Shown one piece after another: positions 28,240 through 30,925 of a DNA stretch of 64,000 bases (position 1 is its first letter; each line of letters opens with the position of its first letter). Position numbers and translations under genes: made by a program. The DNA lies in contig NZ_BAEI01000088.1 in assembly GCF_000241325.1 (NCBI RefSeq), forward strand, positions 1-64,000, in the 5' to 3' direction. The stretch is from Gordonia polyisoprenivorans NBRC 16320 = JCM 10675 (lineage in GTDB: Bacteria > Actinomycetota > Actinomycetes > Mycobacteriales > Mycobacteriaceae). The notes under the pieces are model-generated. The model saw nothing but the letters and a program-made list of their open reading frames with translations, was not told the origin of the DNA and made no database searches.

Positions 28240-29793
28240 ATGGCTGGTGATCCCGCTCTCGAGTGGCCGGCACCCGACCGGTCCTCGCGCGAGGACGTGG
28301 CTCGTCGGATTCGGTTCGGCATGCGCAAGCGAGAGACCTCACGGTCGTGGGTTCATCGTTACCAGCGACTGCTCACCGTCTCCGACGTTCTCATCGTCTG
28401 CGCCACGGTGGTCGGAGCCCAGGCAGCCCGATTCGGTTGGGGCAGCGGCCCGGTACTCAACGGGGTCAAGCTCACCGCCGACGCCGTGTCACTGCTTCTC
28501 ATCGTCGCGTGGGTCGTGGCGCTTCGGGTGTTCCAGACCCTGGACCGTCGGATTCTGGGTGCGGGGGCGCAGGAGTACAGCCGGGTGGTCACCGCATGCC
28601 TGACGGTGTTCGGCACACTCGCGATCGTCGATCTCCTGTTTCGCCTCAGCGTCGCCCGCGGATATGTGGCCGTCGCCCTGCCTGTCGGGACGGCCGCCCT
28701 GGTGCTGTCCCGCTGGTTGTGGCGACGGCGCCTGGTCTCGGCACGCAAAGCCGACCCCGACGCAGCGCGCGCCTACCTCGACCGGCTCCTGGTGATCGGT
28801 GAGATCCCTTCGGCGACAGCACTCATCGCCCGCCTGATGCGCAATCCCGCGTTGGGGTACACGGTCGTCGGAGTGTGCTCCCCGGACAGCAGTCGGCTGG
28901 GACAGCCGGGCGTCGGGACATCGGTGCGTGTGGACGACCACGAGGTTCCCCGGTGGGGTGACTTCGACGACGTGGCCGCCGCCGTGGACGAATGTGGCGC
29001 GACCGCGGTCGCGGTGACCTCCGCGGAAGCTCTCGGTCACGAGGCGATGCAGGAGTTGTCGTGGGACCTCGAGGGACGTGACGTCGAGATGCTGGTCGCG
29101 CCCGGCGTCACCGACGTGGCCGGGCCGCGAATGATGGTGCGACCGGTCGCCGGGCTTCCGCTGCTCCACATCGACAAGCCGAGATATGAAGGGGCGAACC
29201 GCTTTCGGAAGGCAGCTCTCGACCGGGTCGGAGCGTTGTCGGCGCTGCTGATGTTGCTGCCCGTGATGGTGGTGATCGCGATTGCCGTCAAGCTGGATTC
29301 ACGCGGGCCGATCTTCTATCGCGCCACCCGAATCGGACTGAACAATACGCCGTTCCAGATGTGGAAGTTCCGATCGATGGTCACCGACGCCGACGCCTTG
29401 CGACCGCAGATCGCCGCCTTGAACGAGGGCGCCGGTGTGTTGTTCAAGGTGCGTGATGATCCGCGGGTCACCCGGGTCGGCAAGTTCATTCGGCGCTACA
29501 GTCTCGACGAACTCCCGCAGCTGTTCAATGTGGTCGGCGGGTCGATGAGCCTGGTCGGCCCCCGACCCCCATTACCCGACGAGGTGGAGCGCTACGACGG
29601 CCGCGTCGCACGGCGAATGCTCGTCAAACCGGGGATCACCGGACTGTGGCAGGTGTCGGGGCGCTCGGACCTCTCGTGGGAGGAGTCGGTGCGGCTGGAC
29701 CTCTCCTACGTCGAGAACTGGTCCATCATGCAAGATCTCACCATCCTGTGGCGCACCGTCTGGGCGGTGGCCCGCAAGGACGGGGCGTACTGA
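28240..29793 (+). CDS. Initiating polyprenyl-phosphate sugar phosphotransferase (WbaP/WcaJ type)
   Basis: ATG 28240 has GGAGG 5 nt upstream, giving 517 residues. N-terminal four hydrophobic segments (about 55-165), a CoA-binding-like middle domain (about 175-300), a fifth hydrophobic segment (about 333-355), and the catalytic bacterial sugar transferase domain: MWKFRSMVTDAD, RVTRVGKFIRRYSLDELPQL, GSMSLVGPRPPLPDEVERY, KPGITGLWQVSGRSDLSWEE. These enzymes load the first sugar-1-phosphate onto undecaprenyl phosphate on the cytosolic face. It is the only such initiator in the window. The first sugar (glucose or galactose in known relatives) cannot be read here. The much longer frame upstream is antisense to a glycosidase. 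Confidence 0.92.
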   Translation: MAGDPALEWPAPDRSSREDVARRIRFGMRKRETSRSWVHRYQRLLTVSDVLIVCATVVGAQAARFGWGSGPVLNGVKLTADAVSLLLIVAWVVALRVFQTLDRRILGAGAQEYSRVVTACLTVFGTLAIVDLLFRLSVARGYVAVALPVGTAALVLSRWLWRRRLVSARKADPDAARAYLDRLLVIGEIPSATALIARLMRNPALGYTVVGVCSPDSSRLGQPGVGTSVRVDDHEVPRWGDFDDVAAAVDECGATAVAVTSAEALGHEAMQELSWDLEGRDVEMLVAPGVTDVAGPRMMVRPVAGLPLLHIDKPRYEGANRFRKAALDRVGALSALLMLLPVMVVIAIAVKLDSRGPIFYRATRIGLNNTPFQMWKFRSMVTDADALRPQIAALNEGAGVLFKVRDDPRVTRVGKFIRRYSLDELPQLFNVVGGSMSLVGPRPPLPDEVERYDGRVARRMLVKPGITGLWQVSGRSDLSWEESVRLDLSYVENWSIMQDLTILWRTVWAVARKDGAY

Positions 29794-29823
29794 CCGGGTC
29801 CCGGCACCAGCACCGGCGCACCA

Positions 29824-29870
29824 CGTCTCGAGGCTCCTCGCCTGGCGGTTCGTCACACCTCGACGACCGG
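29824..29870. repeat. Divergent copy of the 41-bp element
   Basis: Begins GTCTCGAGGCTCCTCGCC and ends CACACCTCGACGACCGG, matching the outer parts of the four elements at 3161-3551 with a changed centre. It lies 30 bp after the sugar transferase stop codon, so it may act as part of a 3' structure. Confidence 0.75.
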
Positions 29871-29886
29871 GGAAGGAACCGCCGAC

Positions 29887-29969
29887 TACGAATACAGATG
29901 ACACCGGAGCGGGCCCCCGACCCCGAAAATCGCGGTTTTCAGCCTGATTCGGTGGAAGCTGTATTCGTA
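29887..29969. repeat. Long-spaced inverted repeat A
   Basis: TACGAATACAG (29887-29897) and its perfect complement CTGTATTCGTA (29959-29969) enclose 61 bp. Inside, GAAAATCGCGGTTTTC (near 29925-29940) is itself a short hairpin. It lies between convergent genes and is followed by a second, longer inverted repeat. No reading frame with coding character covers it. Confidence 0.7.
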
Positions 29970-30002
29970 CTCGCCAGGCGCCGAGGCCCGCGGCTCATGC
30001 CT

Positions 30003-30092
30003 CGCCTGTTTTCAGTCATTCGCGATGTAGCACCCGACCCGCGACCTGGGGTTTTTCCGTCAGGCTACTCGGGAAATGACTGAAAACAGGCG
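30003..30092. repeat. Long-spaced inverted repeat B with 18-bp perfect arms
   Basis: CGCCTGTTTTCAGTCATT (30003-30020) and the exact complement AATGACTGAAAACAGGCG (30075-30092) enclose 54 bp. The right arm ends 5 bp from the stop codon of the membrane protein at 30098. No transposase or target duplication is seen. It could be a terminator for converging transcription, a structured RNA or a decayed small mobile element. Confidence 0.8.
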
Positions 30093-30097
30093 AATGG

Positions 30098-30925
30098 TCA
30101 CTGCGCCGGGCTCACCTGCCCGCCGGACAACACGCGGTAGGCGTAGGTCGAGGCGATGAGGGTGACCGGACCGGTCACCAGGAGCCCGACGAGGCACAGG
30201 AGGGCGCCGACGAGGTTCAGGACGATCACCACGATGGCCAACAACAGCAGACTGCCGACGTTCTTCGACGTCAGTTCGAAACTGCCCTTGATCGCGTCGG
30301 TCGCCGACAGATTGCGGTCGATCGCGAAAGCAAGGGTGTACCAGAGCAAGAACGTGGCAATGAGTCCCGGGATGATGATGAGGATGAAGCCGATGGTCGT
30401 GATGACCCAGACGAGAATCGCGGCGATGAACACCTGAGCCAGATTGTTCCAGGTGAAGAAGTCCGCGAAGGACGGCTTGTTTCCATCGAGTTCGTTGAGC
30501 GCACCTCGGGTGAACGCCGCCTGCACGAGGACGCTGAGGATGCCGGACACGAGCGACCCGATGATCCCCTGCGCGTTGAGCACCGACGTGTCGTAGTGAA
30601 ATCCGCGCGCCGCGCTGTCGATCAGGCCGACGACCACGAATGTGACGATGGCGAACAGAATCCAGTTGAGCGCGTTGGCCTTGTACTTGTTCCAGCCGTA
30701 GCTCAGAGCGGCGCCGAGGTCGAGCTGGGCAGGCGCCGGCGCGTAACCGGGTACGCCACCTGGCGGGTACTGACCGGCCGGCGGCGGGTATGCCCCTGGC
30801 CCGGGTGGCGGATAGGAGCCGCCTTGCGGCGCTTCGTATCCACCCGGAGGAGGTGTGTAGCCCTGATTCTGCGGGTCCTCCCCCGGGTACGGGGGCTGGT
30901 CGGGTCCGCCTGGCGTACTGGTCAT
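30098..30925 (-). CDS. Membrane protein with Pro/Gly/Tyr-rich N-terminus
   Basis: 275 residues; ATG 30925 follows GAGGAG at good spacing. Residues 1-68 are Pro/Gly/Tyr-rich and probably cytosolic. The rest has about five or six hydrophobic segments, e.g. ALNWILFAIVTFVVVGLI and VLVWVITTIGFILIIIPGLI, with NLSATDAIKGSFELTSKNVG between helices. That arrangement is common in actinobacterial DUF975/GlpF-like membrane-domain proteins of unknown function that often sit near stress or envelope genes. I cannot assign a role. It is monocistronic, with its own promoter in 30926-31122. Confidence 0.82.
   Translation of the reverse strand: MTSTPGGPDQPPYPGEDPQNQGYTPPPGGYEAPQGGSYPPPGPGAYPPPAGQYPPGGVPGYAPAPAQLDLGAALSYGWNKYKANALNWILFAIVTFVVVGLIDSAARGFHYDTSVLNAQGIIGSLVSGILSVLVQAAFTRGALNELDGNKPSFADFFTWNNLAQVFIAAILVWVITTIGFILIIIPGLIATFLLWYTLAFAIDRNLSATDAIKGSFELTSKNVGSLLLLAIVVIVLNLVGALLCLVGLLVTGPVTLIASTYAYRVLSGGQVSPAQ

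Follow-up and report, generated by a model that had tools for sequence, protein, structure and literature searches.

We found two palindromic elements, designated A and B, side by side between convergent genes of Gordonia polyisoprenivorans. They belong to two dispersed families whose copies are nearly constant in length and conserve their arms more than their spacers, and each family flanks a gene of its own, in a layout that recurs in other Gordonia. We favor, with modest confidence, the reading that each palindrome family is the DNA partner of its own AbiEi-DUF559 gene, with the encoded protein recognizing the arms and its nuclease having provoked the past spread of the copies.

Two palindromes and their families

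The window, a 64-kb stretch of the G. polyisoprenivorans genome (G000), contains a gap of 304 bp as measured from the stop of a plus-strand gene for a bacterial sugar transferase (28321–29793; domain match, start from our own gene caller) to the end of a minus-strand gene (30098–30925) for a protein of 275 amino acids without a Pfam match at E ≤ 0.001. The initial annotation had described two long-spaced inverted repeats in this gap, and an inverted-repeat search recovered both. Element A is 83 bp long (29887–29969), and its perfect arms of 11 bp (left, plus strand, 29887–29897; right, minus strand, 29959–29969) enclose 61 bp. The inward continuation of the left arm is imperfect, and a central stretch (29918–29941, alignment columns 32–55) was taken as the core in comparisons. 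Element B is 92 bp long (30002–30093) and ends 4 bp from the stop codon of the convergent gene. Its perfect arms (left, plus strand, 30002–30020; right, minus strand, 30075–30093) enclose 54 bp and measure 19 bp rather than the 18 bp annotated; the length of the gap, the arms of A and both interiors were as described. A conserved core motif of B, with the consensus GACCTGGGSTTTTG, lies at 30043–30056 on the plus strand (alignment columns 42–55). With mismatches allowed, the arms of A reach 32 nt at 78% and those of B 30 nt at 83%.

The repeats had been judged unlikely to arise by chance. Taken alone, the 11-bp arms of A do not bear out this judgment, because 13 inverted repeats in the window have perfect arms of at least 11 bp around an interior of at most 120 bp. 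The arms of B are the longest perfect arms in the window, and the loops of the two other pairs of more than 13 bp measure 2 and 7 bp. Judged by the genome search, in which each proved to be a member of a dispersed family, both elements are nevertheless beyond chance.

A copy of a 41-bp element that had also been placed in the gap could not be substantiated, given that the 27-mer at 29837–29863 was not found again in the window with up to three mismatches allowed. Sequence similar to this part adjoins a further A copy, L008, and occurs at two places in the sister species G029. A different intergenic repeat, rich in CTCGAGGCTCCTCGCC, adjoins A copies in the window (29827–29873) and at L008, L142, L024 and L132, and A in the window is enclosed by one more inverted repeat, the third, with imperfect arms of 19 nt (79%; 29829–29847 and 29972–29990). 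Locus L142 (G029:C1:1750787-1757315) is the G029 counterpart of window positions 29750–30110, and there a second A copy, at a distance of about 240 bp, belongs to a duplication in which the end of the sugar-transferase gene recurs.

The genome-wide search of the arms that the initial annotation had suggested placed A and B in dispersed intergenic families. A similarity search of the G000 genome gave 69 matches with both strands counted. With covariance models built from the copies, and with both strands of one place counted once, family A occupied 16 places of 82–83 bp each and family B nine places of 91–92 bp each. None of the 23 copies outside the window lies inside a predicted gene, with L023 overlapping a predicted gene end by 65 bp. 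Of 19 B-arm matches in G000, 18 pair into the nine B units and the remaining one is a match with three mismatches; the same pattern search revealed no long-range arm pair in G000 such as would mark an autonomous element with the same ends.

Among 59 Gordonia genomes, B was present in seven, occupying nine places in G000, eight in G029, eight in G. oryzae (G001), seven in G. jacobaea (G009), five in G. aichiensis (G017), eight in G. sputi (G079) and two in G070; the other 52 gave no B match at E ≤ 0.01. Family A was clear in three genomes (16 places in G000, 18 in G029 and seven in G. oryzae) and borderline in three more, with one match each at E values of 0.001–0.005. Exceptions to the near-constant length were B copies of 107–108 bp in G. 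jacobaea and G. oryzae. A short tandem duplication around the core was seen in the interior of the G. oryzae B copy L055 (G001:C2:163206-163313). The 22 stretches obtained by similarity search comprised 13 from Gordonia and nine from others (Flavobacterium, one Flavobacteriaceae, Nitrospira and Rothia). All nine of the latter lacked the B core, and no relative of the A or B protein was encoded within the 8 kb fetched around them. In Rothia nasimurium (L077:2408-2490), a palindrome with B-like outer arms and an inner hairpin, again without the B core, was observed.

Genes flanked by their own palindromes

Comparison of neighbors showed that, elsewhere in G000, two B copies flank one gene and two A copies flank its paralogue. 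The B gene is flanked on both sides by B in G000, G029 and G. oryzae, and the A gene on both sides by A in G000 and G029. Both proteins, which are 37% identical, have an AbiEi-like (winged-helix) domain at the NH2-terminus and a nuclease-type domain (DUF559/REase_MTES_1575) at the COOH-terminus. Measured by Pfam cut-offs, the A protein exceeds those of AbiEi_4 and DUF559. The G000 B protein only equals the DUF559 cut-off and is under the others, and two B-type orthologues are under all of them. At E ≤ 0.01, 20 of 27 family proteins match MTES_1575, 15 match DUF559 and 15 match AbiEi_4. Acidic and histidine positions are invariant in the family, and we read them as a putative nuclease active site. 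The dN/dS ratio of the partner genes is 0.11–0.16. A weak match (E = 0.57) was obtained to the mobile-intron nuclease chain 3r3p, which we take to be I-Bth0305I, and structure prediction for two family sequences gave a mean pLDDT of 32.8 and no usable fold.

With a family profile at E ≤ 1e-12, members were detected in 57 of the 59 Gordonia genomes. G000 and G029 each have two members, the A and B genes, and G. oryzae has one, the B gene only; for G000, 41 of 48 first-look candidates were scored, so that weaker family members could be missed. B-type orthologues in G. jacobaea, G. aichiensis and G. sputi are 57–61% identical and have a B copy just upstream, on that side of the gene only. Palindromes also occur without their partner: G. 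oryzae carries seven A copies and no A gene, and G070, with B at two places, lacks a B-type gene and has only a more distant member of the family. Relatives of the family were absent from viral contigs, gave one distant match in phages and were present in four plasmid records. An example of a name derived from RefSeq is "type IV toxin-antitoxin system AbiEi family antitoxin domain-containing protein." Among open PubMed Central papers, we found no described role for an AbiEi-DUF559 fusion and no such repeat-plus-enzyme partnership. The terms "AbiEi" and "DUF559" together yielded no paper in that collection, and queries for DUF559 with palindromic repeats and for extragenic palindromes of Gordonia yielded only papers unrelated by title.

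The generality of the layout was assessed with one family-gene locus, that of the best member, from each of 30 Gordonia genomes, the 30 loci not being independent. Sequence before the gene matched sequence after it at 16 loci and did not at 14, with the cut-off set above the 95th percentile of 870 cross-pairings, a null that is inflated by related species. The sequences of the palindromes differ between Gordonia lineages. Long-spaced inverted repeats with a score of at least 12 were present upstream of 15 of the 30 family genes versus 27 of 531 controls, and downstream of 8 of the 30 versus 42 of 531; the latter control supersedes a smaller downstream set of 29 genes (4/29 at a score of at least 12; Mann-Whitney p = 0.017, Fisher not significant). 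Arm similarity rose with protein similarity (Spearman 0.55, Mantel p = 0.0001, 21 genes), a relation confounded by species relatedness. The 21 genes were those of 20 of the 30 loci plus the A gene, with arms picked by eye, and this set excludes loci without a recognized palindrome, irregular gene calls and the near-duplicate L197. Within a single genome, A arms and B arms resemble each other no more closely than do those of other distant pairs. Stray copies of other such palindromes were found once in 340 kb of G028 and twice in 400 kb of G032, and 400 kb of G005 contained none.

In Tsukamurella tyrosinosolvens, a palindrome upstream of a family gene matches six other records of the strain, with five of these matches covering at least 85% of the query at E ≤ 0.01; a search with a second Tsukamurella palindrome gave no other copy. 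Of the two loci inspected besides L228, L227 has no clear flanking palindrome and L229 has a palindrome downstream only. Records NZ_LR134454.1 and NZ_LR134461.1 (L228 and L232) of T. tyrosinosolvens NCTC13231 are labeled as plasmids and carry pheA and rpsO, and the "plasmid" records of this strain are probably pieces of the chromosome.

One locus, which adjoins a pterin-dehydratase/glyoxalase gene and a malic enzyme gene (domain matches), differs among species. It has the arrangement palindrome-gene-palindrome in G028, G080 and G003, a gene with only a downstream palindrome recognized in G010, and one solo B without a gene in G000, G029 and G. oryzae. In G. jacobaea, G. aichiensis and G. sputi, it contains a B-type gene with one B, followed by a GntR gene that in G029 lies beyond the malic enzyme gene. 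A gene able to enter or leave a palindrome would give rise to such states; the three states come from a comparison between species, by which the direction of change is not proven.

Movement, if any, would be old, because nearly all compared copies are common to several species, and no fresh insertion was caught among the compared loci of related Gordonia. Target-site duplications of at least 5 bp accompany 1 of 16 A and 0 of 9 B copies, versus 8% and 6% by cross-pairing. Three candidates for an empty site were rejected. The L019 site in G029 is rather a deletion between short repeats, given that the element is present in G. oryzae. For L020, the same gene pair in G063 is separated by about 26 bp with no element in between, and the flanks are too diverged for a boundary to be placed. 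The A cassette yielded no clean empty site in G. oryzae, where the neighborhood differs. By eye, two extra A copies in G029 sit in larger duplicated segments.

Conservation, position and explanations

Conservation of the pairing in relatives was the testable half of what the initial annotation had made its reading depend on, and A and B do lie at the same place in the sister species G029. The best match of 23 of 25 G000 query loci was an element-carrying G029 locus, the exceptions being L019 and L020, and 15 of the 25 had a strong match in G. oryzae; given that the comparison loci were selected for carrying elements, absences are under-counted. The copies of a family are nearly identical in their arms and variable in their spacers, with B also having a conserved off-center core. 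Between G000 and G029, the eight B copies compared differ at 1 of 288 arm, 32 of 334 spacer and 132 of 2247 flank positions, the flanks being partly coding, and the 14 A copies at 17 of 504 arm and 27 of 322 spacer positions, with a gapped alignment for L008. Protection of the arms is weaker between G000 and G. oryzae, with differences at 21 of 287 arm and 60 of 335 spacer positions for B and at 23 of 251 and 32 of 160, respectively, for A. In the seven B copies common to the three species (252 sites), 16 arm changes fall on the G. oryzae side and one in the other two species; A has no such excess. The weaker constraint in G. oryzae is not tied to gene loss, because the B arms are relaxed there with the B gene intact.

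One base is altered, identically in both arms, in the B copies that adjoin the B-type gene of G. jacobaea, G. aichiensis and G. sputi. Within a single A copy, the left and right arms often hold different variants that do not pair, which suggests that each A arm is read as DNA.

From this evidence we infer binding, cutting and movement as follows. The winged helix would bind each arm of approximately 18–20 bp, two copies of the protein would sit on one palindrome with their nuclease domains near its middle, and past breaks at or near palindromes, followed by repair, would have moved the palindromes and the gene between them. A tentative further possibility is a kind of bacterial repeat system not yet described, in which the protein, with an AbiEi-like reader and a Vsr-like cutter, is a homing-type enzyme whose gene moves between palindromes that it seeds itself. 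The palindromes would then co-evolve with the gene in each lineage, and solo copies would be landing or vacated sites taken over by the host at gene ends.

The present copies are old, common to several species and mostly close behind stop codons. They lie nearer to the 3' than to the 5' ends of genes (medians of 30 versus 104 bp, p = 5e-5), as determined from 25 3' and 20 5' distances of 23 copies with our own gene caller and genes of at least 250 nt. All five T. tyrosinosolvens copies inspected are within 2–12 bp of a stop codon, and 4 of the 23 copies outside the window sit between divergent genes. In the complete genome of G029, all 26 A and B copies fall within 36% of the chromosome (G029:C1:74955-2257386), a region that includes dnaA at 0.54 Mb; the clustering has a p value of approximately 6e-7 after merging to 18 clusters. 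Copies of A cluster near the A gene, with 6 of 16 non-flanking copies within 250 kb (p = 0.001); those of B do not cluster near theirs (1 of 6 non-flanking copies within 250 kb).

Such positions bear on the main alternative, a rather doubtful one, namely that the palindromes are not mobile DNA but host-selected binding sites of a domesticated regulator, a roadblock terminator factor or a chromosome organizer, with the pair beside the gene serving autoregulation. The bias toward 3' ends, including the distances of 2–12 bp in Tsukamurella, and the confinement of the G029 copies to a region around dnaA are in keeping with host sites, as is the description of AbiEi proteins that bind inverted repeats at their own promoter (PMC7319586). 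Constraint also acts on the arms of old solo copies distant from the gene, where host use explains it more naturally. On the other hand, the many independent palindromes, one for each gene lineage, and the difference between solo and cassette at a single locus look like mobile DNA, and the lack of a B match in 52 of 59 Gordonia genomes also argues against host sites.

The initial annotation had offered a MITE-like relic, a structured RNA or paired terminators as explanations. The first came nearest, in that A and B are dispersed families of non-coding inverted repeats; the word "relic" fits less well, because two of three species still show constraint on the arms and the intact partner genes have a low dN/dS. 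It is improbable that the elements are ordinary MITEs of a lost DDE insertion sequence with the nuclease gene lying between copies by accident. Their short length, dispersal and terminal inverted repeats of approximately 20–30 bp would suit such an origin, as would the genome without an autonomous long-range arm pair. Against it, target-site duplications do not exceed the cross-pairing rate, A and B each lie around one of two paralogues, and many other genes of the family to which these paralogues belong have palindromes of their own.

The folding check proposed with the annotation showed that both elements fold far better than shuffled sequences, with z scores of −7.0 (B) and −5.7 (A) as single-stranded DNA and of −4.0 to −6.9 for both strands as RNA. 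By eye, an ordinary hairpin is found behind the convergent gene in several relatives where G000 has B, and one pair of B is changed on both sides in the G. jacobaea group; these points would favor structured RNAs or terminators. A structured RNA is not specifically supported, with no Rfam match in the window and A arm variants that often break pairing. In either family, two-sided changes are confined to 2 of the 18 predicted pairs, and most pairs of B are invariant. The suggestion of paired terminators fares unevenly: neither promoter nor intrinsic-terminator patterns were detected in the 304-bp gap, and copies between divergent genes do not suit it; the copies may still have a side role in termination, given that they sit close behind stop codons. 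Structured RNAs or paired terminators without a protein partner are the least probable account, one that also leaves the sequence shared with the flanks of the nuclease genes unexplained.

Comparison with known systems

The partnership that we favor, between each palindrome family and its AbiEi-DUF559 protein, shares features with several known systems. Like MITEs, A and B are short, dispersed and non-coding and have terminal inverted repeats; unlike MITEs, they have no target-site duplication, and no autonomous element with the same ends was found in G000. DUF559 has been linked to Vsr-like endonucleases (PMC12907096), and I-Bth0305I is described as dimerizing on a target of nearly 60 bp (PMC3943268). 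The A and B proteins resemble Vsr-like/EDxHD homing endonucleases in their DUF559/REase_MTES_1575 domain, but they are not associated with an intron or intein, and flanking palindromes and solo copies are foreign to that kind of enzyme. As for type IV toxin-antitoxin (AbiE) systems, AbiEi is reported to bind 23-bp inverted repeats at its promoter (PMC7319586). The A and B proteins likewise have an AbiEi-like domain at the NH2-terminus and inverted repeats upstream of their genes, whereas their COOH-terminal part is nuclease-like instead of an antitoxin domain.

REPINs, such as those of Pseudomonas fluorescens and its relatives, are defined by two inverted conserved arms around a variable spacer, an extragenic location and a vertically inherited RAYT partner (PMC8049555, PMC3116915). 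A and B also consist of conserved inverted arms around a variable spacer and are extragenic, hairpin-capable, dispersed and non-autonomous, and their partner gene, which belongs to another protein family, is inherited vertically, is present in few copies and is flanked by the repeats. Their partner is not a Y1 tyrosine transposase, however, they number 9–18 copies rather than hundreds, and on inspection their arms are not REP hairpins with an end tag. A search for RAYT-type transposases (PF01797) was negative in all 59 Gordonia genomes and positive, as a control, in 5 of 14 reference genomes. Given this negative search for the defining transposase, we reject membership of A and B in the REPIN-RAYT system; the likeness is one of layout. 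The link to palindromes accounts for a class of unexplained intergenic repeats and gives each protein of a family common in Gordonia (57 of 59 genomes) a testable DNA target. If confirmed, it would represent a REPIN-RAYT-like partnership built on an unrelated enzyme.
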